The notes below the pieces were generated by a model. That model was not told the origin of the DNA and did not search any database. It saw nothing but the letters and a program-made list of their open reading frames with translations. A program made the position numbers and the translations under genes. From Meghimatium bilineatum (taxonomy: Eukaryota > Mollusca > Gastropoda > Stylommatophora > Philomycidae): a stretch of DNA of 64,000 nucleotides. The stretch is from positions 28,984,483 through 29,048,482 of the forward strand of contig CM067298.1 of assembly GCA_034231615.1 (NCBI GenBank), in the 5' to 3' direction. Shown here in pieces: positions 4,400 to 52,655 of the stretch; the stretch's first letter is position 1; each line of letters starts with the position of its first letter.

Positions 4400-5360
4400 C
4401 ACAGGTAACCAGTTGAGCTCAACTGAACAAAGCATCAACTTGACTGCCTGATGCACTACTGGCGATCTGTCATGTATTGACTATTTCTGAAAATATCCCT
4501 GGATACGTGCGTGCAATAAGACCATTGTGTTCTATGTGTAGAGCTAACACGTCCTCTATTAGTTTATGAATGAATTGAATCATCACAATGCATCCGAAAC
4601 GATTTATTGCGGCCATTGATATCAGAAACTGGCTAGGCTAGAAACAAAAGAACAGGAGAAAAGGTAATAAATTGTAATGAACGCATGAAATAGTGCACTT
4701 CATGGCGGAGCGATTCAGGAAGTTAACGATTGGATCACATTTCTCGTATTGCTTGATTTCCGTTGCCTCCAGTATACATGACGATATTTCCATTTACTTT
4801 TTATATATTAAAATAAATTCTACATATTATTTAAGGTGAACACTTTTCGTCAGTTTGGACACACATACTCAATGAATAATGAAAGAAAAAAGAATTAATC
4901 ACACGTGAAAATAATAAGCAAGTGAGAAAAGTTGTTGAATGAGCTAAGCAAAGGTTCGATCATTAGTATCATACCATGTCCTCGAACCCAAACTTCCCAT
5001 GTCTCGCATAATAAATCCAAAATTGACGCGAAAAAGCTTTTTGTAATAATTCATTGTTTCTGTAAAACCCGGAAGAAGATCTGTATTGAGCTATGGAAAG
5101 TGTTCTTCAATTTCCTGATGTTAGCCATCGAATCTCGTACAGAAATAGACAAAGAGAATTATTCATAGAGCTCGGGGAAATACAGAATCTTGTTGTTATA
5201 ATAAAGAACAATGAAATTTGGTTAATCTTTAGGAAATCATCAAAATTAAGACTCGCAAATAGTTCTACCAGAAATAAATTCGACGATAACGAAACAATAA
5301 ATTTGAGATAGTAAATTAAAGAAAGATTTGTGAACAGTCTTACCATCTGATGTTATAGTT
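4400..5360. other. Non-coding intronic sequence
   Basis: No repeat family or protein similarity that I recognise. The small open frames here have no conserved motif. Confidence 0.45.
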
Positions 5361-5364
5361 CTTT

Positions 5365-5640
5365 CTTTGTATACGTTCTCAAACTCACGCAAATTAACAG
5401 GATGTAATCAGGAGAATGGAATGCTAATATCCTGGTTTACACCTTTGCTGCGGTATGTGCGCCTGCAGCCTCACACATACGACTTCAGCATGGCTTCTGT
5501 TTCGATTTTAACCTATATGGAATGGGAAAACCAACTCTACCTCCTTAGGGACCTCTTAAAACATGCATGGAAGGCAGTGTTACTATTATTTGCTTCTCTT
5601 TCAGGCCCCGACAATAAACGAGCGAAATTGTTGCATTCAT
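5365..5640 (-). mobile_element. SINE-like repeat family B, good copy
   Basis: Contains in order CTCAAACTC...AACAGGATGTA, GGAGAATGGAATGC, CTTTGCTGCGGTATGTGCGC, CATACGACTTCAGCATGG, GGAATGGGAAAACCAACTC, CCTCCTTAGGGACCTC, ACATGCATGGAAGGCAGTG and GCTTCTCTTTCAGGCCCC. The same order occurs at 28780-29062 and 39300-39560, defining an approximately 270-bp interspersed repeat. No pol III box is obvious, so it could be a SINE or another non-autonomous element. Confidence 0.75.
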
Positions 5641-5869
5641 ATACGGTATTTAAGTATAGTAGCTCTTAACAATTTCTTAAAACTGAGATTCTGTTTTTGG
5701 ACATTTTTTCCACATGTCCCTCCCCCAGTGTCAGTCATACACATAGAGGCCATTTCCTATCTGTAGCTCTCAGCAAGTTTTTTGTTAAGGTTTATTGAAA
5801 TCATGTTAAATTTTGCTAACTATAATATAGATTTGCATGTTTCCCTAAAAAGAATATGTGGTCCCGTAT

Positions 5870-5949
5870 GTCAAAATTGGTTCTCTGCGATCCTTACAAG
5901 TTTTTTTTACCTCCCAGCGATGTTGTACGGCCCACATTGAGGACCACTG
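5870..5949. mobile_element. hAT-like MITE right end (fragment)
   Basis: Ends GGCCCACATTGAGGACCACTG, whose reverse begins CAGTGGTCCTCAATG, matching the terminal repeats at 3066 and 44466. A convincing left end was not found. Confidence 0.45.
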
Positions 5950-6587
5950 ATTTATCTGGAAGATGCCATAATCATGTTGCTGAATGTAATCAAATAAATA
6001 CTTGCATGAGCTGACTTCCTATTTAAAATTAGCGTTTTGTGGAAATATCTGAAATATGGCTCGACATAATGAAATATTGAAAATATTCTTCTTCTAAAGC
6101 TCATCTTGTTATCTTACTAAGAATATAAAGGAAGGCCTATTAAGAAATTGGTTGTGGGCACAGTGGACAAAAATAGAAAGTTGAAGATATTATACCAGAT
6201 AATTCAAAGGAGACATTAGGATGATCACAATTTGAATTGAAGGCTTTAACTGTAATCTTGTGAACTTGTGAAGAAACTAGTCTGATCCGATTTTGTTGAA
6301 ACATAAAATTGTGAAGACAATTTGTCCAACTCTGTGAATGGTGATCTTGATCAACTTGTGACAGGAAATGATGACGATTAGTAGAACGGAAGGAAGCAGC
6401 TCGGAGAGATTGGGACAAATACACTGTTACATCAAGTAAAATCTAGTAGTTGTAATCTGTTGAATCCACGCCCACTAGTAATCTCCCCCTTCTGAAAATT
6501 CAATTTGCGGAATTTAAATTTATGGGAAACAGTCAACTTTTTAGAAAACTTCTGTATTTTGTGTTTTAATGTGGTCCTGTTTTGCGT

Positions 6588-6750
6588 TCTTTAACAAACT
6601 CCAACTGGAAAGATTGAAAAGTCTCTCTCTCTCTCTCTCTTGCAGCACGATCGCACTAGATTTCCTGAAGGATGTAGTCCAGAAAAGGAAAATGCGTCGT
6701 TTCCCCGTTTTATGTGCACAAATTGCCTGATACATCTGACTTCGGCGATG
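6588..6750 (-). mobile_element. SINE-like repeat family A with internal (TC)n expansion
   Basis: Matches the family A copy at 25705-25880: TTGCAGCA, AGATTTCCTG, GGATGTAGTCCAGA, AATGCGT and ACATCTGACTTCGGCGATG. The usual short AGATCTCTCTTGCAG segment is expanded into a run of CT dinucleotides at about 6630-6650. Confidence 0.6.
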
Positions 6751-7059
6751 GTAACTAATAAGTTCTGTGTCTATAGCACTTTCACTGAGATACTGAAGTC
6801 ATATCGCTAGTAGGACTGCCGTGCGAGAGAACTGGTTCCCGTACTACGTGCTGGTCACAATTCTCAAATCTAACAACGGTCAAACTTACTTGATCTCCTT
6901 CTTTCTGTCTGTGTCACTACCGATATCCGCTAGACATCCGCTTTGATACTTTATGTGTCTACAACTGTTACCACTCTGAAATATGTCGCAATCTCTTACA
7001 CTTCTATTATGTCCATTTTTCCAAATCTAGACATGACTTTCTTATTCTTCATATTATTC

Positions 7060-7190
7060 CTTCTGTCAGTTCTCAAACTCCAGCAGATTACCAATGAACA
7101 TTCCGGAGAATGAGTTGAGTCGTGGTTTAGAGTTCATCTGCGATTTTTCTTATGCCTATATCTTTTTGGACCGACACATCAGATTTTATA
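7060..7190 (-). mobile_element. SINE-like repeat family B, partial
   Basis: Begins GTTCTCAAACTCCAGCAGAT and keeps the ATTCCGGAGAATG and GACCGACACATCAGA landmarks, then loses similarity just before the palindrome at 7265. Confidence 0.5.
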
Positions 7191-7264
7191 TAAATAACCA
7201 AAATGACGATGTCCGACAAAATGAAAAGTGCCGCAGTAACCAGACAAATAATAGGTAAATAATA

Positions 7265-7562
7265 AATAAAATATGAATGTTACTAGATAAATGTCAATAT
7301 AAAATAATCAGAAATAACAACAAAACATAGAACGCATACAATTATCGTCGTGTCGGTCCTATTGGGACCTTTTTGTCAAACCATTGTCAAAGTCTTGGCT
7401 GTGTTTTTTTATAGTTGTGTTGTCTTAATTAATTTTTGTTTCGTGATAAAGGTACCAATAGGACCCATACGTTGATAATTGTCTTTGTTCTATGTTTTAT
7501 TGTTATTTCTGATCATTTTCTATTGATAGTTATCTAGTAACCTTCTTACTTTATTTAGTGTT
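7265..7562. repeat. Long inverted repeat (about 116-bp arms, 58-bp loop)
   Basis: The left arm 7265-7380 and right arm 7439-7562 are reverse complements with a few differences. Shared blocks read from the outside are GTTACTAGATAA, ATCAGAAATAACAA, AAAACATAGAAC, ACAATTATC and GGTCCTATTGG(G/T)ACCTTT. No protein is encoded. It is probably a palindromic MITE (foldback element). I did not find a clear target duplication. Confidence 0.75.
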
Positions 7563-7619
7563 TACATCTGATTTTAACACATGTGGTTTTTACTTTGACG
7601 ACATATTGGACGTGATAGC

Positions 7620-7680
7620 CTGCAGCACTTCCAAAATTCCTTAGTCGTCTTATGCGACATGCATGTAAAGTCGAAACATT
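7620..7680 (-). mobile_element. Fragment of SINE-like family B
   Basis: CCTTAGTCGTCTTATGCGAC followed by ATGCATG matches the 3' third of family B. Too short for certainty. Confidence 0.3.
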
Positions 7681-7744
7681 TATATATGTTGTCTTCTCTT
7701 ATCTCTATATTATGTAACTTTCAATGTCCATGTATTATTTAAGT

Positions 7745-8345
7745 CTGTATTCATCATCAAGTGACATATTCTTTCCAGAACGTAGTCTTTCCTATTGATC
7801 TCTTGAATTCTCCGCGGTCTTGAGCAAGTTGCCCTGCATCTTCCAATGACATGCGCAGGCATTCTTGAATGTCTTTTGTCCAACGGCGTCTTGGTCGGCC
7901 TTTGCCCCTGTTGCCTTCTATCATCCCCTCCATTAACACTCTCTCCATGCCGTCGATCTCTTAATAATGACCGAAAAAAGCTAGCTTTTTAAAAAATATA
8001 TTGTTCAGAAGCCAGCCTTCCTGGACGTTAATTGTTCGTAACACCTACTGGTTTGTTTTCTTCGCTGTCCATGGTATTCTCAAAACTCTTCTATAACACT
8101 TTAATTCAAATTATGTTATTCTCTTGGCCACTGTTTTATTTAGTGTCCATGCTTCACATCCATATGTCGCCACAGGAAATACACATGTTCGTAGTAAAAA
8201 GAATTTGGTTCTTATGTTAGTACCTTGCCATAGTTTCTTTATCTGTTTTAATTTGGCCAGCGCCATTGCCGTTCTTCTTGATCTCAACTGCGCAGTCCCC
8301 GCATTGTTTATATTAGTTCCTAAATAATGAAAATGTGTCACTTCT
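7745..8345 (-). pseudogene. LINE reverse transcriptase C-terminal fragment (TFWKEYVT family)
   Basis: Two minus-strand pieces belong to one decayed non-LTR retrotransposon ORF. The upstream piece (8341-8111) reads HFHYLGTNINNAGTAQLRSR ... LKQIKKLWQGTNI ... VFPVATYGCEAWTL, the typical thumb region after the RT active site, with YGCEAWTL diagnostic. The downstream piece (7948-7757) reads EGNRGKGRPRRRWTKDIQEC...TTFWKEYVT, the basic GRPRRRW linker and C-terminus. Frame is lost between them. Homologous pieces occur at 27815-28140, 33055-33370 and 58440-58600. The active-site region is missing, so it is dead. Confidence 0.8.
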
Positions 8346-8379
8346 TACAAATTGCAGTTCTCAATCCATAGAAAATTTC

Positions 8380-8660
8380 TTGGCATAATACTTCTGTAGT
8401 TTGCCGTTGCTTTCAGGAGGAACATCCGATTTAACTGACACCGAGGAAAACACATACATTCTCACTCGCTATTTTGACCGGAAGTCCTAAGTCTGTATAA
8501 TTCTTACAGCTGACGGGAATTGAACCAGGTCTGTTCTAGCAGCCTTATAAGGGATGTGGTTGGTCAAGTACGGAAAACCTGTTTACATGTGTTGCAAAGC
8601 GATTCGGTGCTGCTAGAACAGACTTGGTTCAATTGCCGTCAGCTGTAAGAATTATTTTCA
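8380..8660. mobile_element. Head-to-head tRNA-like SINE pair forming an inverted repeat
   Basis: Arms 8497-8543 and 8609-8655 are inverted copies with 2 differences in 47 bp. Each arm, read outward, carries CTGGTTCAATTCCCGTC or TTGGTTCAATTGCCGTC, a good pol III B-box (GGTTCAANTCC type). Left of the hairpin, 8398-8420 (GTAGTTTGCCGTTGCTTTCA) is the core module also found in the SINE at 10344. The left half thus looks like a minus-strand SINE, with a second head attached in the opposite direction. Confidence 0.6.
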
Positions 8661-8745
8661 TTTGTTCTCATGCTTCCTACTTGAATTTATTTGTATAAGT
8701 CTGTATAGCAGATCATTATGCCTTTTGTATATGTCAACAACCGAA

Positions 8746-8895
8746 GTCAAATGTGTTGGTCCATCCATTATTTCAAATAAAACGGCGACACAATAATCTC
8801 CTATCTCTGGATAACATCCTACTGGACACAATGTGTAGGACCATTGCCATGCTATAAGATAGATCCAGAGGGAGTTAGAGTAATTAATGTGTAAA
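8746..8895 (+). mobile_element. SINE-like repeat family A
   Basis: AAATAAAACGGCGACACAA, ACATCCTACTGGA, GGACCATTGCCATGCTA and AGATAGATCCAGAGGGAGTT match the copies at 21601 and 42207 in order. The usual GAGAATGAACGC tail is degraded. Confidence 0.65.
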
Positions 8896-8999
8896 AAAGT
8901 TATGTCAGTTTTTTTATATACGGTATATATACATATGACCTTTACCGTACAATACGAGAAATGCATATGAGTATTTGACATAATCTCTAAATATGATAC

Positions 9000-9436
9000 A
9001 TACACACATTTTCATTACATTTTATGGATATATAAATGAACGCTCGCGGATTAAGGGGGGGGGGGAGAGTTTGGAGTGTTCAACCTCTCCTCCCCTCGCC
9101 CTCCCCCCTCTTAGCAAAATGACTTTTAGAACTACGAAATAGGTCAAAAGTCAAAAGTACCCTCCTCTCCAACACGCCCCCACTCTCCCTTTCTTGAGAT
9201 TTTTCACAAAAATATCATAAATACCTTCTATAAATGAGGAGGTTCTGTCACACGATAACGCACACATGACGAATCTGTAATGTATATAAGTATCGCGGTA
9301 GGCAGAGATATTGAGTATGATTTTATAAGCTTAATTATGAATGACATTATTCATAAGTGGTAATGATATTCAATATAATTTTATAAGCTGAATTATAAAT
9401 GACATTATACAGTAATAATGATATTTTTGCTTACAG
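9000..9436. other. Intron end before the Islet exon
   Basis: Contains an 11-G run near 9055-9065 with an adjoining C/T-rich stretch to about 9195, then AT-rich sequence with a short duplication (TATGATTTTATAAGCTTAAT, about 9317 and 9375). No coding signal appears until the acceptor at 9436. Confidence 0.45.
9424..9436 (+). promoter_or_regulatory. Splice acceptor of the Islet penultimate exon
   Basis: TTTTTGCTTACAG is a pyrimidine-rich tract ending in CAG. It places the exon start at 9437, with AAT as the first complete codon of the conserved frame. Confidence 0.85.
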
Positions 9437-9628
9437 AATGGTGGAGGACTTAATCGACCTTTGCAAGGTGTTCCTATGGTTGCATCCAGTCCTGTACGCC
9501 ACGAACCCCCTGTTGGCATGCAAGGAAACCCAGTGGAGGTGCAGAGCTACCAAACACCCTGGAAAGCGCTCTCAGAATTTGCCATGCAGGGAGACATGGA
9601 CCAGCCTCACGCGCCGTTTCAACAACTG
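9437..9628 (+). CDS. isl: Islet LIM-homeobox protein, penultimate coding exon (partial gene)
   Basis: This 64-codon exon encodes part of the C-terminal half of an Islet transcription factor, a nuclear LIM-homeodomain protein that specifies motor neurons and other cell types. Its translation contains [31 protein letters not shown] and [12 protein letters not shown], which line up with vertebrate ISL1/ISL2 ([41 protein letters not shown]). In vertebrates this stretch is the segment that binds the LIM domains of LHX3/LHX4. The start is set by a polypyrimidine tract and acceptor TTTTTGCTTACAG ending at 9436. The end is set by a strong donor, CTG|GTGAGC, at 9628/9629. Both borders are phase 0. No LIM domain or homeodomain is visible upstream in the window, so those exons lie beyond position 1. 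Family assignment is firm; ISL1 versus ISL2 is not meaningful for an invertebrate. Confidence 0.93.
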
Positions 9629-9910
9629 GTGAGCACCATGAACATCATGAATAACAACAATAATAACAACTCATTCCTACTGCAGCAACAGCATAACTTT
9701 CAACAGTTAGTGGAGTTTGCGCACTATAACAGCGACAACAGCTTCTTCGGCTGCTACACTCAGCAGGAGCAGCTAAACGAGCATCTTCGTCAGAAGCATC
9801 ACCATCGGCGTCAAATCACTCTAAACGACATGGACGATGATGATGATGATAGCACCAAGATGATGGTGGACGAGGAAGACGATACAGTGGTTTATCTTGA
9901 GGACCAGTGA
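9629..9910 (+). CDS. isl: Islet alternative C-terminal extension (retained-intron reading frame)
   Basis: If the donor at 9628/9629 is not used, the Islet frame stays open for 93 more codons and stops at TGA 9908-9910. The added peptide has an Asn run (seven in a row after NIM), a Gln/His-rich stretch, a second FQQLV motif ([17 protein letters not shown]) and a strongly acidic end with a six-Asp run. Its Gln, Asn and Asp codons are mixed rather than monotonous and it keeps no stop over 279 bases in an AT-rich intron, which hints at real coding use. It could be an alternative last exon or an ancestral part of the gene now usually spliced out. Alternatively it is a chance open frame. No transcript evidence is available to me. 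Confidence 0.5.
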
Positions 9911-10343
9911 AGCTCTTCACAAAAGTGAGGAACATTTCCAACCTATTTTCCTTGACTTAAGACGCCTTTTAAAAAATCCTATGTTACTAGTAATAACCAT
10001 ATTTTTTAGTTTCATATAAGCAGGTACAATGTGAAACATTTATTATTTTTTGGTTCTTAACAAAATCAAATCAAATTGTAATCTCTCTTGTTATTTTTAA
10101 ATTAAATTAAATGTTCTTTTGTTTCTGCCTTGGCAATTCCTTCTTCGTATTAGACACCCCTTCCACCCCACCCCTCCCCCTCCATTGATGTCCAGTTATG
10201 CAATTAGTAAAATTGAACGGTCTTTTCTTTAATCATGCTATTTGGGCTTGGTTGATTTACATGTGTTTTTCAATTTTATAAAATATTGGAAGCATATCCT
10301 TTACAGGACTTAGCTATCAACCCAGCATTTGTTGGCTGTGGTG

Positions 10344-10487
10344 ATTTTCTAGGCAATATAAATACGTTCAGTAGTTTGCCATTGCTTTCTGAATGGTCCG
10401 GATGCACAATTGCCTGTGGCGGGGATCGAACTCGGTACCTTGGCCGTCACAGACGAGCTCTGTACCACTTCGCCACAGAGCCGGATA
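10344..10487 (-). mobile_element. tRNA-derived SINE family C in the last Islet intron
   Basis: On the minus strand the head reads GGCTCTGTGGCGAAGTGGTA (A-box-like), then CGAGTTCGATCCCCGCC (B-box), then CAGGCAATTGTGCATCCGGA and GCAATGGCAAACTACTGAAC. The same body is at 18305-18430, 28600-28727 and 39575-39705. A short (AT)n/(TATA) tract flanks its head at 10500-10530. It lies between the two Islet exons, antisense to the gene. Confidence 0.75.
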
Positions 10488-11413
10488 TATATTATAAAAT
10501 ATACCCAATATATATATATATATATATATACTTATATAAATAGAAGAGAGGTGTTGAAAAAAAATCGAAGAACAGCGAAAAGAGGAGACCAGAATATTGG
10601 GACCTCCCAGATGGAGCTGATGAAGATAACACAGAACGTAATCGTGGGAAAGAAAACGCTGCACTTCTCATTTCAAAAAAGAAGCTGGAAGGAACGAATA
10701 AAAAAAATAATAATAAACATTTCAAAAACTAATTGCTAAATCTGATAAATGTTTCTAGTCAATTCTAAACAATTCTTGTTTTCGTAATATATAACGAATT
10801 ATATTGATTTAAATCTTCATTTATCAAACTGTGCATAATTTCTTCCTGTAAAATATGTGCCTCATATGTGCATCTGTGTTGTGAAGTGTATACATATAAT
10901 GTTCGCCTCACAATAAATTCTCGCGTTTGTGAATAGTAAACTTTAAGAAATTATAGCATACCCATTCTAAGATAGAAGAGTTCTGACACCCAACTCGCAG
11001 TCTTTAAGAAGATTTATGTTTACTTCATACTCTCTTGACAAGAACTACACTGAAACCAAAATAGAAGATAAACGATTATCGGGACAAATTTTCAATTTAC
11101 GAAGGCTGAAAAAGTTTTGAAATTATTTTTAAAAGCGAGTAATTTAATTTCTTTTTGTCATCCTATATTACACTAATTTGCTCGATTATGGCTTTTTATT
11201 CCAAATGTCCATTTAGCCTTTATTGCACTTTTTAAATTACATAATTTTTGCTTTGAACTTTTGCTCTTGTAAATTGTTTCTCTGTGGTCTCACATTATAT
11301 CATACATTATTAAGATGTACAGCTTGTAATGCGTTTTTTAATAATCACAACAACAACAAAAAATGTTAAAAATTAAACATGCTGTCATATGTTGACTATA
11401 TACTAATGTTGTG

Positions 11414-11434
11414 CCAACTTTCTTACTTCCATAG
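11414..11434 (+). promoter_or_regulatory. Splice acceptor of the Islet terminal exon
   Basis: CAACTTTCTTACTTCCATAG is a good polypyrimidine tract plus TAG acceptor. Phase 0 agrees with the donor at 9629. Confidence 0.82.
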
Positions 11435-11644
11435 ATGTCATCTTTTGATCACATGGATACCAGCATTTCCAGTCCTCCACACCACCCAGAAATGATGATT
11501 CAGTCTGGGCTTAGAGATAGTCCAGTTCGGATGGGATTGATGATGCATCGTCGGTACCTGCATTCTGAAGACATGATTGGCTCTGTAGGGTCAGACTTTT
11601 CTGGTACAACGTCTGAGCTCTCACATAGTCCCATCTCTCACTGA
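11435..11644 (+). CDS. isl: Islet terminal coding exon
   Basis: This is the final coding exon of the Islet gene, 69 codons plus TGA. It is preceded by a clear polypyrimidine tract and acceptor (CAACTTTCTTACTTCCATAG ending at 11434) and begins in phase 0, matching the donor at 9628 across a 1,806-bp intron. The peptide is rich in Ser, Met and His (MSSFDHMDTSISSPPHH at its start) and ends GSDFSGTTSELSHSPISH. That tail resembles the Ser/Thr-rich end of vertebrate Islet proteins ([20 protein letters not shown]), although the central part is not conserved with vertebrates. Reading the first ATG as a translation start would be wrong, because it is an internal Met next to the splice site. The assignment rests on splice signals, phase and the tail similarity. 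Confidence 0.82.
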   Translation: MSSFDHMDTSISSPPHHPEMMIQSGLRDSPVRMGLMMHRRYLHSEDMIGSVGSDFSGTTSELSHSPISH

Positions 11645-12135
11645 TAATCGACTGATTTTGATAGCTTTCACCCGCAGATATATCTAACGGACACTCTAGA
11701 TCAGCAGTATAACAGTCATGTTCCTCAACCAGTGCATCTTAATCTCGGACAATGATTTCTACTGTGTTGTTGACAGAGACAATCAAGTCATGGACACACA
11801 ACTTCAGCCATATACAATTTTGAAAACATATGTACTGATGCTTGAATAGACAAAAGTCACGTACAGGATGGTACAATTCTGAGCTAACATCATTGTTCTA
11901 ACTGACGTGTTTGCACCGCTGAACAGGAATGATAGACAGTTACGTTAACCTTTGGTCGGTGGTTTAGCAGATAAGATTTGTTTACAAAGTCGGCTTCGTA
12001 TGTAAAACACTCATTATTGATTTGTGCCAGTCATCCCGTGTCACTAAATGTTAGTATCTCATTCTGGAATAGAGACCTATGTGATTATACATTATGAATT
12101 ATTGATACAGTCAATAAACGGCAAATATAATATTA
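11645..12135 (+). other. Islet 3' untranslated region with poly(A) signal
   Basis: After the TGA at 11642-11644 there is about 470 bp of non-repetitive sequence with many stops. AATAAA occurs at 12113-12118, followed by an AT-rich stretch, so cleavage would fall near 12130-12140. If the extended reading frame ending at 9910 is used, its message could end at AATAAA 10712-10717 or 10914-10919. The 3' end is inferred, not observed. Confidence 0.5.
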
Positions 12136-12234
12136 TTTCAGAGTTCGATGTGACTGAATTACCTGAATCTGATCCTCCCGGATGTTATGCGCTATGATAT
12201 AACCAATGAGAACTATGGTCCATAGTTGAAAATA

Positions 12235-12570
12235 CGTACCTCATCAAAATAGATACACACATGTACACACGTTGACAATAGATATACAATACACACATGT
12301 ACACACGTTGACAATAGATATACAATACACAAATATATTCGTTGACATTAGATATATAATACACACATGTACACGTTGACAATTGATATGCCATACGTAT
12401 ATGTACACGTTGACAATATATATATATATATCATACATGTGTACACGTTGACAATAGATATACAGTGCACATATGTACACACGTTGACAATATATATACC
12501 ATAAAGATATGTACACACACTAAATATATGTACCATACACACATGTACGCGCTGATAAAATGTCATACGT
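12235..12570. repeat. Degenerate minisatellite, 36-40 bp units
   Basis: About nine units based on ACACATGTACACACGTTGAC and AATAGATATACAATACACA. It sits just downstream of the likely Islet poly(A) site. Confidence 0.85.
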
Positions 12571-12574
12571 TAAA

Positions 12575-13400
12575 AAGAGATCTCGAAAACACAATTTCAT
12601 ACACGTGCACACTGCTAAGGATACATGAGACACACATGCAGCACATTCTACAAACAATAAAACATTTGAAGAGATGCACATTTCATCAATTTCAAACACA
12701 GAGATCTTTGATTATTACGACAGTGATTGGTGTGAATTCAGAGGAGCTACTTAGTTAATAATGATAAACGAGTGACAGTTAATATAGACCAGTGGTGAAA
12801 GGAATAAGGTCAACTTCTACCCGCCAATCCATTTTTACTGATACGTCATACTGATTTACAGATACTGTAAGCACCGACCTTGATTCCACAAAATATCAAA
12901 TAGCAAGCTATCGCAGAAGAGCTGTAAACATCCAGACATTGGACATTTTAATACGTGTTGAAGACTATCGTTTCTTACATTCAATCATATCCTTTATCTT
13001 ATGAATTAAACATGCGTTCAGAACGAACTGAGATTTGGAAATATATTAAGTGATCTGTACCTTTGATGATGCGAATACAAAGTGACAAAAAACTGTCTTT
13101 GATTGGCTACCTTTTGATGAAGAGTAAAACAACATTGCAGAGAAATACAAACTCAGATTTTGTGTTTTAAGGAACTAGAAAAAGAACTATATTCTCGACG
13201 CAACAGTCTTTAATTTAAGTAAATGCCCAAACCTAATTTTGAGCCTCTGCGTAGTATGAATGTGATACTTGGACCAAAACAAGGTTTCCCAGGTCGGATT
13301 TATGCGAACAACTCAATATTCTCTATATCCATTATTGTCGAATAGATTGTTTTGTATGTGCATTGAAAAACACATGCTTGAACGTAATCACTTAGACTAT
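12575..13400. other. Unannotated intergenic sequence
   Basis: No repeat or coding similarity recognised. Confidence 0.4.
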
Positions 13401-18664: not shown

Positions 18665-19338
18665 ATAATCAGCAAAGGCACAGAAGAGCATGTGCTAAAC
18701 ATAACAATACATGGAGAGAAACTGCAACAAGTAGAACATTATCGTTATCGTGGATACATAATCACAAATGATGGTAGAGGTGAAGCACAAGTTAAAAGGA
18801 GAATATAAATGATTAATAGTACTTTCAATGGCATGAGGAAAATATTAACATCTAAACAAATTACAAACAAGATAAAAATAACCATTATAAAATGCTACAT
18901 CTATTCTATATTAAACTATGGCTCAGAAACATGGACAACAAACAAACAATTAGAAGAAGGAATCGATGCCTTTGAGATATGGATATATAGAAGAATAGGG
19001 AGAACATCTTGGAAAGAAAATAAATCAAAGAAAGAAAGAGGTTCTAACAATGCTTAAAAATATTATAAAGAAAGAATTATTATCGGGAAAAAAGATCAAG
19101 CGAATCAAATATTCTGAACACATTAAACACATGATACCGTGTTGAATACCTTATTTGAAAAAAAAGTCGAAGGGAGGTGAGCAAGAAGTAGACAGAGATA
19201 CAAGTGGGAGAGTAACATCACAAGATGTACAGGTTATAGTCTAACGAGTGCACCCCGAAAACAAGAGATAGATGATGTTGGAGGTTTGCTACAGCCAACT
19301 CTCAGTGCGGATATGGCACTTGATGATGATGATGATGA
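18665..19338 (+). pseudogene. LINE RT C-terminal fragment with (TGA)n tail
   Basis: In broken plus-strand frames: HGEKLQQVEHYRYRGYIITN, then MRKILTSKQITNKIKI...YSILNYGSETWTT, then RRIGRTSWKENK. These are the connection/thumb motifs of a non-LTR reverse transcriptase. The 3' end reads CAACTCTCAGTGCGGATATGGCACTTGA followed by a TGATGATG tail to 19338. The same 3' end is found reversed at 60436 and partly at 45960. Microsatellite-like tails are typical of RTE-like LINEs, but the clade is not proven. Confidence 0.78.
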
Positions 19339-22300
19339 GCATTTAGATGGAAGTGGACAGCATTTAGTTGGAAGTAATCAGCATTTAGCTTGGAGCATGT
19401 AGCATTTTGTTGAGAGTAGACAGCATTTTGTTGAGAGTAGACAGCATTTTGTTGAGAGTAGACAGCATTTTGTTGAGAGTAGACAGCATTTTGTTGAGAG
19501 TAGACAGCATTTTGTTGAGAGTAGACAGCATTTTGTTGAGAGTAGACAGCATTTTGTTGAGAGTAGACAGCATTTTGTTGAGAGTAGACAGAATTTTGTT
19601 GAGAGTAGACAGCATTTTGTTGAGAGTAGACAGCATTTTGTTGAGAGTAGACAGCATTTTGTTGAGAGTAGACAGCATTTTGTTGAGAGTAGACAGCATT
19701 TTGTTGAGAGTAGACAGCATTTTGTTGAGAGTAGACAGCATTTTGTTGAGAGTAGACAGCATTTTGTTGAGAGTAGACAGAATTTTGTTGAGAGTAGACA
19801 GCATTTTGTTGAGAGTAGACAGCATTTTGTTGAGAGTAGACAGCATTTTGTTGAGAGTAGACAGCATTTTGTTGAGAGTAGACAGCATTTTGTTGAGAGT
19901 AGACAGCATTTTGTTGAGAGTAGACAGCATTTTGTTGAGAGTAGACAGCATTTTGTTGAGAGTAGACAGCATTTTGTTGAGAGTAGACAGAATTTTGTTG
20001 AGAGTAGACAGCATTTTGTTGAGAGTAGACAGCATTTTGTTGAGAGTAGACAGCATTTTGTTGAGAGTAGACAGCATTTTGTTGAGAGTAGACAGCATTT
20101 TGTTGAGAGTAGACAGCATTTTGTTGAGAGTAGACAGCATTTTGTTGAGAGTAGACAGCATTTTGTTGAGAGTAGACAGCATATTGTTGAGAGTAGACAG
20201 CATTTTGTTGAGAGTAGAAAGAATTTTGTTGAGAGTAGACAGCATTTTGTTGAGAGTAGACAGCATTTTGTTGAGAGTAGACAGCATTTTGTTGAGAGTA
20301 GACAGCATTTTGTTGAAAGTAGACAACATTTTGTTGAGAGTAGACAGCATTTTGTTGAGAGTAGACAGCATTTTGTTGAGAGTAGACAGCATTTTGTTGA
20401 GAGTAGACAGCATTTTGTTGAGAGTAGACAGCATTTTGTTGAGAGTAGACAGCATTTTGTTGAGAGTAGACAGCATTTTGTTGAGAGTAGACAGCATTTT
20501 GTTGAGAGTAGACAGCATTTTGTTGAGAGTAGACAGCATTTTGTTGAGAGTAGACAGCATTTTGTTGAGAGTAGACAGCATTTTGTTGAGAGTAGACAGC
20601 ATTTTGTTGAGAGTAGACAGCATTTTGTTGAGAGTAGACAGCATTTTGTTGAGAGTAGACAGCATTTTGTTGAGAGTAGACAGCATTTTGTTGAGAGTAG
20701 ACAGCATTTTGTTGAGAGTAGACAGCATTTTGTTGAGAGTAGACAGCATTTTGTTGAGAGTAGAAAGAATTTTGTTGAGAGTAGACAGCATTTTGTTGAG
20801 AGTAGACAGCATTTTGTTGAGAGTAGACAGCATTTTGTTGAGAGTAGACAGCATTTTGTTGAGAGTAGACAACATTTTGTTGAGAGTAGACAGCATTTTG
20901 TTGAGAGTAGACAGCATTTTGTTGAGAGTAGACAGCATTTTGTTGAGAGTAGACAGCATTTTGTTGAGAGTAGACAGCATTTTGTTGAGAGTAGACAGCA
21001 TTTTGTTGAGAGTAGACAGCATTTTGTTGAGAGTAGACAGCATTTTGTTGAGAGTAGACAGCATTTTGTTGAGAGTAGACAGCATTTTGTTGAGAGTAGA
21101 CAGCATTTTGTTGAGAGTAGACAGCATTTTGTTGAGAGTAGACAGCATTTTGTTGAGAGTAGACAGCATTTTGTTGAGAGTAGACAGCATTTTGTTGAGA
21201 GTAGACAGCATTTTGTTGAGAGTAGACAGCATTTTGTTGAGAGTAGACAGCATTTTGTTGAGAGTAGACAGCATTTTGTTGAGAGTAGACAGCATTTTGT
21301 TGAGAGTAGACAGCATTTTGTTGAGAGTAGACAGCATTTTGTTGAGAGTAGACAGCATTTTGTTGAGAGTAGACAGCATTTTGTTGAGAGTAGACAGCAT
21401 TTTGTTGAGAGTAGACAGCATTTTGTTGAGAGTAGACAGCATTTTGTTGAGAGTAGACAGAATTTTGTTGAGAGTAGACAGCATTTTGTTGAGAGTAGAC
21501 AGAATTTTGTTGAGAGTAGACAGCTGTTAGTTTGAAGTAGGCATTATTTAGTTGGAAATAGGCAACATTTAGTTGGGAGTAAGCAGTATTTAGTTGGAAG
21601 TCCCGCCGAAGACGGATGTATCGGGCCATTGGTGCAAATAAAACGGCGACACAACGAATTACCATTATCTGAACTATATCCTTCTGGAAATCTAGTAGGG
21701 CAATGGTCCTGCTACAAGAGAGATCTAGCGGGAGTTTGAGAATGAACGCTGAAGAAGGTGTTAAAAGTAAGCAGCATTTAGTTGGTAGCAAGCAGCATTT
21801 AGTTGGAAGTAGGCAGCATTTAGTTAGAAGTAGGCATAGTTAGTTGGAAGTAGGCAGCATTTAGTTGAAAGTAGGCAGCATTTAGTTGAAAGTAGGCAGC
21901 ATTTAGTTTGGAGTAAGAAGAATTTAGGTGGAAGTAAACAGCATTTAGTTAGCCATAAGCAGCATTTAATTGGAAGTAAGCATCATTTAATTGAAGTAGA
22001 CAGCATTTAGTTAGAAGCACGAATTATTTATATTGGAGTAGGCAGCAGTTAGTTGGGAGTAGGCAGCATTTAGTTGGAAGTAGGCAAGATTTAGTTGGAA
22101 GTAGGCAACATTTAGTTGGAAGTAGGCAACATTTAGTTGGAAGTAGGCAACATTTAGTTGGGAGTAGGCAGCAGTTAGTTGGGAGTAGGCAACAGTTAGT
22201 TGTGAGTAGGCAGCAGTTAGTTGGGAGTAGGCAGCAGTTTGTTGGAAGTAGGCAGCATTTAGTTGGAAGTAGGCAACATTTAGTTGGAAGTAGGCAACAT

Positions 22301-36589: not shown

Positions 36590-37265
36590 GAACATAACAT
36601 GAAACTTTCTGAATAGAACATTAAACTTTATAAACATAACATTCTTCTTCTTCTTCTTTCGTTCGCTAATAATGTCTATATCTGCAGTGTTGTTTCTTGT
36701 ATAAATTGGACAGTGTTTTCCATTTCTTGTTTTGTACCATAAAGTTTAACATTCATCGGTGTATCAGAAGGCCGGTATGTGCATCGAAATGTGTTATAGT
36801 TTGCACATTCTTGAAGGATATGTTCTAAATTCTGGTTGGCTTGTCCACAAATACACTTTGATGTTGTGCCAATTTTAAATTTTGTATACTTATGGCTGTT
36901 TAGTCTATTGTGTCCAGTTCTGAGTCTAAATATGATGACCTGTTCTTGTCTGTTAAGTAGGTGGTAGTCGTCCCGTGGAGGTAAGTTAGGCTTTCGTTGT
37001 GCCTTTATCATGGATTTTTTTTTTGCGTGATAGCTGATTAGTACATCCGGTTATAAACATAACATGAAACTCAATAAACCGAAAATGAAACTTTTTTAAC
37101 ATAACATGAAACGTTATAAACATAACATGAAACGTTATAAATATAACATGAAACGCTGTAAACCTAGCATGAAACTTTATAAACAGAACATGAAACGTAA
37201 ACATAACATGCACCTTTATAAACAGAACATGAAACGTTATAAGCATAACATGAAACTTTATAAAT
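36590..37265. repeat. 21-bp minisatellite split by a LINE
   Basis: Units like GAAACGTTATAAACATAACA T occur at 36590-36642 and again at 37051-37265. The intervening 36643-37050 is a LINE fragment, so one array was broken by the insertion. Confidence 0.85.
36643..37050 (-). pseudogene. 5'-truncated LINE C-terminus inserted in a minisatellite
   Basis: The minus-strand frame 37011-36676 reads YHLLNRQEQVIIFRLRTGHN, RLNSHKYTKFKIGTTSKCIC, GQANQNLEHILQECANY, MNVKLYGTKQEMENTVQFIQ and ETTLQI stop. Its tail is (TTC)n reversed at 36643-36660. A 15-bp repeat TTATAAACATAACAT flanks it at 36628-36642 and 37051-37065. It is the cleanest C-terminus of this LINE family in the window. Confidence 0.88.
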
Positions 37266-41670: not shown

Positions 41671-42206
41671 ATTTTTTTTCGTAGGTTAAATTTATAAACT
41701 CACCCTGTACATTACATGGCGCCAGCAAAAGCATGCGGCCTTTATCACACAGCTACAAAATCCCTACATGTAATTCCATAACTGGAAAAATGCAGTACTA
41801 GTTTTTTTGTTGTTGTTGCTGTTAACCTACTTGAGTTGATATTTACTAAATATAGCAGGAACGATTGTAGTAATGACGCAAACTAATCCACTGAAAGTGA
41901 CACCTATTATTTTAAAGTTACAAATCACAGAGAATACTGAACTTTATCCGTCAATGATCATTTTTAGTCTTAATCTCGGACCTAGTGTTCGAGAAGATGC
42001 ACTAGCAAGAACATCCTTAATAACAGTCCCAGTTGTCCCTCCTCCGACAGGGTTACGGGTGTCTTCATCTTTCATCTCCATATAGTTCTATTAGCTGTAT
42101 AGTCTTGTTTTGTATCTTTACATTCCACCATGACCAGTATAGTTTTCTAATGTCTCTGGTTGCCTGTAATTGTGATATGAACCTTGTTTCTTAGTTTCAA
42201 ACCACC

Positions 42207-46369: not shown

Positions 46370-47556
46370 AATGAAATTAACACCTATAGTAGAGATGCAC
46401 AAAGTACAAAGAACGCAAACACCTGGCGAAAGGAGAGACACAAAGGTACTAATACAAGCAGAAAAGTTTCAGTGTATGTAAAATCATCCAATTAAGGAAA
46501 GATTCCAAAATCTAGCAATAAGGTGGTTTACGTTTAATCCATCAAGTTAAACGACTCCGTAGACAATTTACAGACCTGCCTAAAGTTGACAGCCCCTTAA
46601 GGTCTGTACCAGAACAAACTCCTTGGCGTGAAAGGCGTGGAATATCAATATATACATTCAGACCAAGGTGAAAGGAATACTAAGCGAGAGGAACAGAACA
46701 ATGTGCAGCGAAGGACAATCACGCTCAGTTTCCTGGACGACGAATATCCACAAGAAATATGGGTCAGAGCATACACAGATGGGTCAGCACAGAATGCAGT
46801 GAGGAATGGAGATGCAGGTGTATATATAGAATATTCACACAAGCCTAGAGATACGATCAGAACACCAAAAGGGAAATTCTGCAATAATTATATTGCAGAA
46901 ATCCAGGCAATTATGGTGGAAACTGAAAAACTGCTGAACTACAAACCTGGCACATAGCCTGTGGTAATCTTGACAGAAGCAATTTGTACTGCTTCAAGCT
47001 CTCCTGTCTGGAAAACTAACAGAATTACAAAATCTACTTAATGAACTGTCTTACCAGTATAGGATAACTATGCAGTGGACATCCTCACACTATGAAATAC
47101 GAGTAAAGGAAAAAGCAGACCAACTAGCTAAGGAAGGTGCTGCCGAAGACCAACCAGATGCACCAATTACCTACCATAAAAAACCCCAGATAATCAAGTC
47201 AATAAGAACGCCACAAAAATCAACACATGTTGACGATCACATCATGAACAGATCATAATAAGCCGTAACTCTACGCCTCAGAACGGGACACAATACATTC
47301 CGCAGTCACATGTACACAAATTTCAAGATTGACAACACGGTCGTGTGCACATACAGGCAGCACATAGTGTCTAACATATACGTCAAGAATGTTCTGAGTA
47401 TGAAACGCTGAGGCAAACATATTGGTCAGATGAATCAACACTGGCATCAAAGCTTTACGGACCACTGTGTGAACTACAAAAGACAGAGAGTTATTCACGG
47501 AGACAGAATTACAGATAATAGACATGTTTCAAGTGGACGAAAGAAGAAGAAGCATA
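46370..47556 (+). pseudogene. LINE RT thumb, RNase H and zinc-knuckle region (longest copy)
   Basis: About 1.2 kb of one non-LTR retrotransposon ORF in order. 46380-46620 has VEMHKVQRTQTPGERRDTKV then LIQAEKF, the region after the RT thumb. 46628-46957 contains VRAYTDGSAQNAVRNGDAGV and KFCNNYIAEIQAIMVETEKL, a type I RNase H with the first catalytic Asp (YTDGSA) and Glu (AEIQAI). Frame-corrected VVILTE and MQWTSSH follow; the usual third Asp (LTDS) reads LTE. 47070-47258 gives VKEKADQLAKEGAAEDQPDA with the last Asp. 47275-47350 gives LRLRTGHNTFRSHMYTNFKI. It ends ETELQI, then an AAG tail at about 47550. RNase H after RT fits I-like LINE groups. Frameshifts and stops make it dead. Confidence 0.88.
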
Positions 47557-47994: not shown

Positions 47995-50115
47995 TACATC
48001 TCATATTTTCTCTCGACTTTCTCTCACATTCTATGTGATCCTTTCTCTAGTCTTCCATATTCTATGCGATTCTCTCTCTAGTTTTTATCTCACATTCTCT
48101 GTGGTACTCTCTCTAGTTTTACTCTCACATTCTCTGTGGTACTCTCTCTAGTTTTTCTCTCACTTTCTCTGTGGTACTATCTCTAGTTTTTCTCAATTCT
48201 CTGTGGTACTCTCTCTAGTTTTTCTCTCACATTCTCTGTGGTACTCTCTCTAGTTTTTCTCTCACATTCTCTGTGGTCTCTAGTTTTTCTCTCACATTCT
48301 ATGCGATTCTCTCTCTAGTTTTCTCTCTCATTCTATGCGATTCTCTCTCTAGTTTATCTCTCACATTCTCTGTGGTACTCTCTCTAGTTTTTCTCTCACA
48401 TTCTCTGTGGTACTCTCTCTAGTTTTTCTCTCACATTCTATGCGATTCTCTCTCTAGTTTTTCTCTCACATTCTTTGTGGTACTCTCTCTAATTTTTCTC
48501 TCACATTCTCTGTGGTACTCTCTCTAGTTTATCTTTCACATTTTCTGTGGTACTCTCTCTCATTTTTCTCTCACATTCTCTGTGGTACTCTCTCTAGATT
48601 TTCTCTCACATTCTATGCGATTCTCTCTCTAGTTTTTTTCTCACATTCTTTGTGGTACTCTCTCTAATTTTTCTCTCACATTCTCTGTGGTACTCTCTCT
48701 AGTTTTTTTCTCACATTCTCTGTGGTACTCTCTCTAGTTTTTCGCTCACATTCTATGCTATTCTCTCTCTAGTTTTTCTCTCACATTCTCTGTGGTACTC
48801 TCTCTAGTTTTTCTCTCACATTCTCTGTGGTACTCTCTCTAGTGTTTCTCTCACATTCTATGCGATTCTCTCTCTAGTTTTTCTCTCACATTCTCTGTGG
48901 TACTCTCTCTAGTTTTTCTCTCACATTCTCTGTGGTACTCTCTCTAGTTTTTCTCTCACATTCTCTGTGGTACTCTCTCTAGTTTATCTCTCACATTCTC
49001 TGTGGTACTCTCTCTGGTTTTTCTCTCACATTCTCTGTGGTACTCTCTCTAGTTTATCTCTCACATTCTCTGTGGTACTCTCTCTAGTTTTTCTCTCACA
49101 TTCTCTGTGGTACTCTCTCTAGTTTTTCTCTCACATTCTCTGTGGTACTCTCTCTAGTTTATCTCTCACATTCTCTGTGGTACTCTCTCTGGTTTTTCTC
49201 TCACATTCTCTGTGGTACTATCTCTAGTTTTTCTCTCACATTCTATGCTATTCTCTCTCTAGTTTTTCTCTCACATTATCTGTGGTACTCTCTCTAGTTT
49301 TTCTCTCACATTCTCTGTGGTACTCTCTATAGTTTTTCTCTCACATTCTCTGTGGTACTCTCTCTAGTTTTTCTCTCACATTCTCTGTGGTACTCTCTCT
49401 AGTTTTTCTCTCACATTCTCTGTGGTACTCTCTCTAGTGTTTCTCTCACATTCTCTGTGGTACTATCTCTAGTTTTTCTCTCACATTCTCTGTGGTACTC
49501 TCTCTAGTTTTTCTCTCACATTCTCTGTGGTACTATCTCTAGTTTTTCACTCGCATTCTCTATGATCACTTTTCTAGTATTCCTCTCACATTCTATGTGA
49601 CACTCTCTCTAGTCTTCCTCTCACATTCTCTGTGACACTCTCTCATCTCTTCCTCTCATATTCTCTGTGATACCCTCTCTAGTCTTCCACTCATATTCTC
49701 TGTGACACCCTCTCTAGTCTTCCTCTCACATTCTATGTGACACTCTCTCTAGTCTTCCTCTCACATTCTCTGTGACACTCTCTCATCTCTTCCTCTCATA
49801 TTCTCTGTGATACCCTCTCTAGTCTTCCACTCATATTCTCTGTGACACCCTCTCTAGTCTTCCTCTCACATTCTATGTGACACTCTCTCTAGTCTTCCTC
49901 TCACATTCTCTGTGACACTCTCTCATCTCTTCCTCTCATATTCTCTGTGATACCCTCTCTAGTCTTCCACTCATATTCTCTGTGACACCCTCTCTAGTCT
50001 TCCTCTCATATTCTCTGCGACACCCTCTCTAGGCTTCCTCTCATATTCTATGTGACATTTTCAAATCTTTCTCTCACATTCTCTGTGTTTTTCTAGTATT
50101 TCTCTAACATTCTCT
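47995..50115. repeat. 35-bp CT-rich satellite, about 60 copies
   Basis: Main unit CTCTCTCTAGTTTTTCTCTC then ACATTCTCTGTGGTA. Minor unit type has CTATGCGATT in place of CTGTGGTA. From 49560 the units shift to a TAGTCTTCCTCTCA, TGTGACAC type and form a 140-bp (4 x 35) higher-order repeat, three copies starting near 49577. Strand-asymmetric (pyrimidine on the plus strand). Confidence 0.97.
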
Positions 50116-50149
50116 GTGATCCTCTCTCCAGTCGTCTTCCTCTATGCAA

Positions 50150-51905
50150 ACCTTAGTGTTTTCGGTGAGAGTCCAGAATAGAAACTTTGGTGTGTTTGGT
50201 GAGGTGGAGAGTCCGGTATGAAAATCTTAGTGCGTTCTGCGAGATGGAGAATCTGGTACGGAAACCTTAGTGTGCTCAGTGTGCTTGAGACTTGAATACA
50301 TATGCACAAGTACGGTATGCAAACCGTAGCGTGTTTGGTAAAATGGAGAGTCTGTTACGCAAACCATAGTGTTAGGTGAGATGGAGAGTCCGGTATTGAA
50401 ACCTTAATGTGATCGGTGAGATGGAGAGTCCGGTATTGAAACCTTAATGTGATCGGTGAGATGGAGAGTCCGGTATTGAAACCTTAATGTGATCGGTGAG
50501 GTGGAGAGTCCGGTATTGAAACCTTAATGTGATCGGTGAGGTGGAGAGTCCGGTATTGAAACCTTAATGTGATCGGTGAGATGGAGAGTCCGGTATTGAA
50601 ACCTTAATGTGATCGGTGAGATGGAGAGTCCGGTATTGAAACCTTAATGTGATCGGTGAGGTGGAGAGTCCGGTATTGAAAACTTAATGTGATCGGTGAG
50701 ATGGAGAGTCCGGTATTGAAAACTTAATGTGATCGGTGAGATGGAGAGTCCGGTATTGAAAACTTAATGTGATCGGTGAGATGGAGAGTCCGGTATTGAA
50801 ACCTTAATGTGATCGGTGAGGTGGAGAGTCCGGTATTGAAAACTTAATGTGATCGGTGAGATGGAGAGTCCGGTATTGAAAACTTAATGTGATCGGTGAG
50901 ATGGAGAGTCCGGTATTGAAACCTTAATGTGATCGGTGAGATGGAGAGTCCGGTATTGAAACCTTAATGTGATCGGTGAGGTGGAGAGTCCGGTATTGAA
51001 AACTTAATGTGATCGGTGAGATGGAGAGTCCGGTATTGAAAACTTAATGTGATCGGTGAGATGGAGAGTCCGGTATTGAAAACTTAATGTGATCGGTGAG
51101 ATGGAGAGTCCGGTATTGAAACCTTAATGTGATCGGTGAGGTGGAGAGTCCGGTATTGAAAACTTAATGTGATCGGTGAGATGGAGAGTCCGGTATTGAA
51201 AACTTAATGTGATCGGTGAGGTGGAGAGTCCGGTATTGAAACCTTAATGTGATCGGTGAGATGGAGAGTCCGGTATTGAAACCTTAATGTGATCGGTGAG
51301 ATGGAGAGTCCGGTATTGAAACCTTAATGTGATCGGTGAGGTGGAGAGTCCGGTATTGAAAACTTAATGTGATCGGTGAGATGGAGAGTCCGGTATTGAA
51401 AACTTAATGTGATCGGTGAGATGGAGAGTCCGGTATTGAAAACTTAATGTGATCGGTGAGATGGAGAGTCCGGTATTGAAACCTTAATGTGATCGGTGAG
51501 GTGGAGAGTCCGGTATTGAAAACTTAATGTGATCGGTGAGATGGAGAGTCCGGTATTGAAAACTTAATGTGATCGGTGAGATGGAGAGTCCGGTATTGAA
51601 ACCTTAATGTGATCGGTGAGATGGAGAGTCCGGTATTGAAACCTTAATGTGATCGGTGAGGTGGAGAGTCCGGTATTGAAAACTTAATGTGATCGGTGAG
51701 ATGGAGAGTCCGGTATTGAAAACTTAATGTGATCGGTGAGATGGAGAGTCCGGTATTGAAAACTTAATGTGATCGGTGAGATGGAGAGTCCGGTATTGAA
51801 AACTTAATGTGATCGGTGAGATGGAGAGTCCGGTATTGAAAACTTAATGTGATCGGTGAGATGGAGTGTTTGGTTTGGAAAACTTAGTATGTGCCGTGAG
51901 ATAGA
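50150..51905. repeat. 40-bp satellite, about 43 copies, with 320-bp higher-order repeat
   Basis: Unit GATCGGTGAGATGGAGAGTC then CGGTATTGAAACCTTAATGT. Two variable sites (GAGATGG or GAGGTGG; AACCTT or AAACTT) define unit types. From 50571 an eight-unit pattern repeats three times with one extra unit inserted at 51211. Left-edge units (50150-50400) and the last two units are diverged. Confidence 0.97.
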
Positions 51906-52655
51906 GACTTGATTATATATGCGCAAGTCCAGCGTGCGAAAATAATAATTTTCATACTTTAACAACTGCAATCCACCCCAGTCTGCAATTTCAAAACTAA
52001 ACACAATCATCGACCACATGTTCCCACTTATATTTGTATATTTCTTGTTATTGTTACCCGCGAATGTCTGCTACATTGACACATTGTTTTCACATCATAT
52101 TCTCTTGTTTCTCTAATGTACTTCTGCACGTAGTAACGCCAAGGATTTGACCAAATTTCGTCTTCTTTCTCTTTTTCTTAGTTCTCTCTGTCATATTTCT
52201 ACTTACTATATGACTTTACTGACATTAGATTCTAGTATTTCAAACATTACATTACATTGTTTTGTTTATTTAAAGGAAGTCATATTACCATATCGTAATC
52301 TTGTGAATATTCAATAGCCTTTACATCTGCAGAAATAATCTGACAGTTGTAGAATCTAAATCACAATGTCGATAATCTGTTGCCGTGGAAGCATACAGGA
52401 GGCAGGAATAGTAATACTTGCATTTTATATTTATGCTCCTATAAGGAGACTAAAGAGGGATGAGCGTGGTGTTTGGCTATCAAATCTTAAAAAGGCATAT
52501 GCAACTCACGTCATTCCGAAGACTTATATGTTGCTAAAAGGCACAGACATTGCAGCGATGATGTAAAACACAATACACATTTCTCCGTTCCCTGTACTAC
52601 AATATACGTAATAGACGATGTTTGGGAATAAACGTAGAAAAATAAGAACAAGAAC
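51906..52655. other. Unannotated sequence
   Basis: No motif found in the 66-codon frame 52366-52566; probably chance. Confidence 0.35.

Follow-up and report, generated by a model that had tools for sequence, protein, structure and literature searches.

A candidate second, acidic C-terminus for an Islet gene of Meghimatium bilineatum, encoded beyond an internal splice donor

Islet exons and their surroundings

In the window, by which we mean the whole 64,000-nucleotide stretch of DNA that was analysed, an Islet gene has two of its coding exons, both on the plus strand, at 9437-9628 and 11435-11644. The first of these follows an acceptor (..cttacag, last base 9436) and translates as NGGG...PFQQL. 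The features of the two exons are as follows.

9437-9628, plus strand: Islet exon, penultimate coding exon within the window; 64 codons, with the Lhx3/4-binding segment and the first FQQL
9443-9562, plus strand: equivalent of the Lhx3-binding domain of ISL1 (phmmer alignment, exon residues 3-42)
9488-9499, plus strand: SPVR, corresponding to S269-P270, where CDK1 acts on human ISL1 (ISL1 tblastn alignment)
9617-9631, plus strand: first FQQL(V), from the reading frame
9629-9634, plus strand: donor 1, CTG/GTGAGC, the best of 90 GT in 9437-11434 by both weight matrix and U1 duplex energy
11435-11644, plus strand: final coding exon when donor 9629 is used; 69 codons plus TGA 11642-11644, in phase 0 with that donor

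Using phmmer, exon residues 3-42 were matched to the ISL1 part of 2rgt, a solved fusion (E 4.1e-6), and the exon was also matched to ISL2 in 6cme (E 9.7e-5). A tblastn search of the window with human ISL1 gave 37 identical residues of 58 at 9461-9634 (E 2e-17). By both programs, the exon holds the Lhx3/4-binding segment that follows the homeodomain in the Isl group. Besides 9461-9634, the ISL1 query had no tblastn match in the window with E < 0.4, so the exons for the LIM domains and the homeodomain lie outside it. CDK1 phosphorylates human ISL1 at S269, with the consensus (S/T)PX(R/K), according to PMC8106192; such a site is retained here as SPVR, within the Lhx-binding segment. Acceptor look-alikes occur inside the exon at 9489 and 9589.

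The conserved FQQL had been said to end at a strong donor and the spliced form to join in phase to 11435; both statements hold, with 69 codons running from the junction to the TGA. The pyrimidine tract of the 11435 acceptor scores 0.76, the top value, tied with 10153 and 10195, and the end of the last exon, SVGSDFSGTTSELSHSPIS, resembles the human ISL1 end STGSEVASMSSQLPDTPNS, a likeness equalled by 206 of 5000 shuffles. Stretches of 69 open codons begin at 609 of 25300 positions in 22700-48000. There is modest support for taking the 11435 exon to be the ordinary Islet ending, whose net charge would be -4.5. The presumed main 3' UTR was taken as 11645-12118, its end set by the AATAAA at 12113.

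Much of the remaining window is rich in minisatellites, at 19338-21596 and elsewhere (57 tandem-repeat rows, some describing the same array); the arrays include a 21-bp unit present about 108 times, and others at 48018-50132 and 50375-51907. A repeat element at 10285-10490, within the last Islet intron, has a second copy on the minus strand at 18426-18302 (75% over 125 nt). Its minus strand reads GTTCGATCC, which by eye is like a tRNA box B, and the element may be a tRNA-derived SINE; ARAGORN found no tRNA genes in the window, and an Rfam scan of the window gave 0 matches. Two weak matches below the Pfam cut-off, one RNase H-like at 46601-46954 (plus strand, E 0.0013) and one like a reverse-transcriptase zinc finger at 36679-37050 (minus strand, E 0.03), are possibly retroelement remnants. 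At 41840-42082 on the plus strand, an open frame of 81 codons shows pronounced three-base periodicity.

Make-up and coding character of the frame beyond donor 9629

If donor 9629 is passed over, the frame stays open for the 93 further codons that the original prediction had noted.

9629-9907, plus strand: putative alternative C-terminal tail; 93 codons, acidic, rich in N, Q, H and D
9698-9712, plus strand: second FQQLV, within the tail
9833-9850, plus strand: D6 run in the sequence, the start of the tail's acidic end
9908-9910, plus strand: TGA, stop of the tail form, from the reading frame

The tail begins VSTMNIM followed by N7 and later reads DM followed by D6; with Q3 and H3, these are the Asn, Gln/His and Asp-rich runs that had been described. 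They are encoded by mixed synonymous codons, e.g. AAT AAC AAC AAT AAT AAC AAC. Its acidity is borne out by a net charge of -13.3, with -13.8 in its last 30 residues, and the Lhx-binding region that it was said to adjoin is intact upstream in the same exon. Third positions in the tail are C 32, G 27, T 24 and A 10, as compared with T 42, G 33, A 30 and C 28 in the two other exons.

No Pfam family matches the tail up to E 1, and the idea that it is a known domain was rejected on that ground. It is probably disordered; a single-sequence structure model (mean pLDDT 47.2, pTM 0.21, no residue at 70 or above) was too poor for use. An origin from a repeat or transposon was also rejected: with low-complexity masking, and within the window only, the tail's other matches are few and read as chance, namely 37 bp at 19322-19358 at the edge of a minisatellite (81%, E 0.007) and a 15-bp word found at four places in another minisatellite (E 0.086). 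Searches for relatives in prokaryote and viral contig collections gave 309 and 47 pattern matches with 0 confirmed, as is expected since the collections are prokaryote and viral. Read-through of TGA 9908-9910 was considered and set aside; the next base is A, and nothing seen pointed to recoding.

The second FQQLV is present where it had been predicted, and shuffling the residues of the tail yields FQQLV in 63 of 200000 trials and FQQL in 959 of 200000. It had been called a duplication. The five-residue repeat is there, but descent of one copy from the other is unproven: by eye, 12 of 15 nt are identical and the three differences are synonymous, and blastn of 9437-9910 against the window finds no match between exon and tail, that is, no likeness in the flanking DNA. 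The motif was also examined as a relic of a vertebrate-type FQQLVNF ending, and this was rejected; eleven residues compared with human ISL1 are equalled by 46 of 5000 shuffles, and by 4390 of 5000 once the FQQL part is left out. The likeness between the last exon and the tail is equalled by 1132 of 5000 shuffles. Since FQQLM and MGLMM give the ordinary form a pair of FxxLV-type motifs as well, the acidic end and not the number of motifs is the clearer difference between the two endings.

Openness by itself is weak evidence of coding. The tail stays open in 182 of 20000 dinucleotide shuffles, and runs of 93 open codons begin at 174 of 25022 positions in 22700-48000, at 19 of 4642 in 4500-9420, at 36 of 1241 in 9911-11430 (the same intron as the tail) and at 1808 of 63721 over the whole window with its repeats, which makes openness a 0.4-2.9% event. 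Length was discarded as evidence as well: among the 202 non-repetitive ORFs that have 60 aa or more, the Islet ORF (162 aa) is the longest, but the conserved exon makes up part of it and the runner-up has 160 aa.

Three-base periodicity is strong evidence for a coding tail. Its chi-square is 60.5, with a background mean of 7.1, a value reached by none of 820 overlapping background windows from five chosen stretches and by none of 1500 random open frames of the tail's dinucleotide make-up, whose maximum was 27.6. Trinucleotide runs contribute to it: with residue runs of at least 3 removed the value is 37.9, matched by 1 of 1117 windows, and with all N, Q, H and D codons removed it is 18.8, matched by 18 of 1132. 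The accepted exons score lower, 13.0 for 9437-9628 and 6.5 for 11435-11641, and the unusual residue make-up of the tail therefore drives part of the 60.5. Ranked by its best 279-nt stretch, the Islet ORF heads the 75 non-repetitive ORFs that are 80 aa or longer, with 32.6 as the second-highest value; scaled over whole ORFs it stands at 29.8, second to the 41840-42082 frame mentioned above (30.8 scaled to 279 nt).

The end of the tail is marked in composition too. GC is 0.45 in the tail and 0.26 in 9925-10130, and the change point, at 9934 (support 9929-9945, search range 9629-10280), falls shortly past the stop, where the composition turns intron-like. Over the wider range 9629-11000 the best split moves to 10484, at the edge of the repeat (11.4), and 9934 comes close behind it (10.8).

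Were the frame noncoding, it would have remained open past a normal donor by chance, with trinucleotide repeats mimicking periodicity and a coincidental FQQLV. The modest rarity of open frames, the fall of the periodicity to 18.8 and the brevity of the motif all leave room for this, but the full periodicity, the motif and the composition boundary just after the stop would have to coincide, as would a donor near the stop by one of three measures, and we think such a coincidence improbable. The original suspicion, that the open frame is more than chance, is upheld by the periodicity, the motif and the boundary taken together, and 9629-9907 is, in our judgement from the sequence, very probably coding in some form.

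Donor-like sites and the 3' end of the proposed tail exon

Two further features lie downstream of the tail's stop.

9925-9930, plus strand: proposed donor 2, AAA/GTGAGG, second of the 90 GT in 9437-11434 by weight matrix
10101-10111, plus strand: two overlapping ATTAAA in the sequence, like poly(A) signals, then a T-rich stretch

The donor-like site at 9925 sits 14 nt past the TGA. By the weight matrix, only 9629 and 9925 within 8000-13000 score at least as high as 9925, as do 24 of the 4042 GT in the window, and the chance of such a site within the next 25 nt is 1.0% (from 22700-48000) or 0% (from 4500-9400). The U1 duplex energies are -8.1 for 9629, the best of the 90, and -5.1 for 9925; six of the 90 pair better than 9925, the strongest after 9629 being 10024 (-7.1). 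Across the window, 225 of 4042 GT are as strong as 9925 by U1 duplex energy and 927 of 4042 by complementarity count, giving near-stop chances of 8.7% and 30.8%. The site is thus good by weight matrix and unremarkable by U1 pairing. GC of the 206 nt that follow (9925-10130) is 26%, while stretches of the same length in the presumed main 3' UTR have 36-41% and the intron stretch 8900-9436 has 34.5%; the segment fits intron better than UTR, though it also falls below the upstream intron and is not decisive.

We propose that 9437-9628 belongs to an exon with two 3' ends. Use of donor 9629 would join FQQL to the 69-residue ending from 11435, the ordinary form; if that donor is skipped, the frame would run through the 93 codons to the TGA, the tail exon most likely ending at donor 9925 and being spliced to the 11435 exon, which would then serve as 3' UTR. 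Taken whole, with the coding tail ending at donor 9925, this statement has in our estimation about an even chance of being right. The ending had been described as unspliced. A coding-like frame past the donor is indeed present, but an unspliced form is not required: either form could come from selecting donor 9629 or the site at 9925, 14 nt beyond the TGA, with no intron retained. Retention as the sole route to the tail is unneeded given donor 9925, and is kept as a rival.

That rival would have a real coding tail reached either by intronic polyadenylation, as a composite terminal exon cleaved after the ATTAAA pair at 10101-10111, or by intron retention, and we regard it as a lesser but serious possibility. 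The two hexamers with their T-rich sequence some 190 nt past the stop are consistent with polyadenylation, though poly(A)-like hexamers are common throughout the AT-rich DNA here and the GC of 9925-10130 lies under that of the tested UTR stretches. Retention requires no second donor and would still leave the stop within the last exon, but it would carry the repeat 10285-10490 into the mRNA; the ordinary U1 pairing of 9925 speaks for both routes. Far less probable, in our view, is a short intron within the tail, from donor 9629 to an acceptor after 9685, 9706 or 9763, which would remove the N-rich run (and, with 9763, the second FQQLV) and keep the acidic end. Each of these acceptor look-alikes would join the donor in phase 0, and their pyrimidine tracts score 0.65, 0.47 and 0.71 respectively; set against this, the tract at 11434 is better (0.76), the introns would be only 57, 78 or 135 nt long, and Q-rich coding DNA yields CAG look-alikes of itself.

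Two proposed Islet endings and their relation to known isoforms

On the proposed exon with two 3' ends, the stop of the tail form would precede the final junction by 14 nt; under intron retention it would fall in the terminal exon. Under the 50-nt rule of nonsense-mediated decay, an mRNA with its stop so placed is predicted to escape decay, presuming that there is no intron within the 3' UTR. In the alternative protein the ending would change from mildly to strongly acidic (-4.5 to -13.3), with the LIM, homeodomain and Lhx-binding parts left as they are. An acidic end together with a hydrophobic-x-x-hydrophobic-hydrophobic motif is a make-up known from activation domains, and the tail may give the DNA-binding complex, otherwise the same, a further surface for transactivation or co-factors, as had been suggested. 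What the DNA itself shows is the open frame, its periodicity, the composition boundary, the donor-like sites and the motif; the transcript, its translation, its escape from decay, the disorder of the tail and an activating role are inferred.

Up to the junction the gene is like human ISL1, sharing the Lhx-binding segment, WKxLSxFAxQxDxDQP and FQQLV, and the end of the spliced last exon is weakly like the ISL1 end; the human ISL1 sequence used as query differs in having FQQLV once and no 93-residue acidic tail. Alternative splicing of Islet is itself known, the mammalian alpha and beta forms of Isl1 being listed in PMC12318918 under an alternative 3' splice site in exon 5; of the two, beta activates the insulin promoter more strongly. 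The cDNAs of the two forms, 1050 and 981 bp in PMC2447832, were amplified with the same end primers, so the difference between them is internal. The slug gene would resemble this case in Islet splicing, there accompanied by changed transactivation, but the switch proposed here is on the donor side and would replace the whole C-terminus. LHX9 offers another LIM-homeodomain parallel: its alpha and beta isoforms still enter complexes with ISL1, as PMC2447832 has it, though the alpha form is said there to have no homeodomain, while here both the DNA- and Lhx-binding parts would be kept. Activity-changing splicing of Islet is accordingly already known, and a donor-side exchange of the C-terminus would be a variation on it.

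No report of an alternative Islet C-terminus in an invertebrate appeared among the matches listed, which is not proof of absence in print. A cuttlefish paper of 2014 states that no islet expression data were then available for cephalopods (PMC4186843). The tail isoform may already be included in a public gene model for this species.

A bolder and rather doubtful extension is that in this animal lineage the donor switch is regulated, the strongly acidic tail with its repeated FQQLV letting Islet/Lhx3/Ldb activate more strongly, or recruit differently, in some neurons. If true, splicing would form a further layer of the LIM code for neuron identity, one undescribed for vertebrate Islet among the matches listed. 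In both flies and vertebrates, Islet acts with its partners in helping to establish what motor neurons become. Use of the second ending would let a single gene make a pair of Islet proteins alike in their DNA- and Lhx-binding parts and unlike in their effector ends, and splicing alone could then alter what the LIM code brings about.
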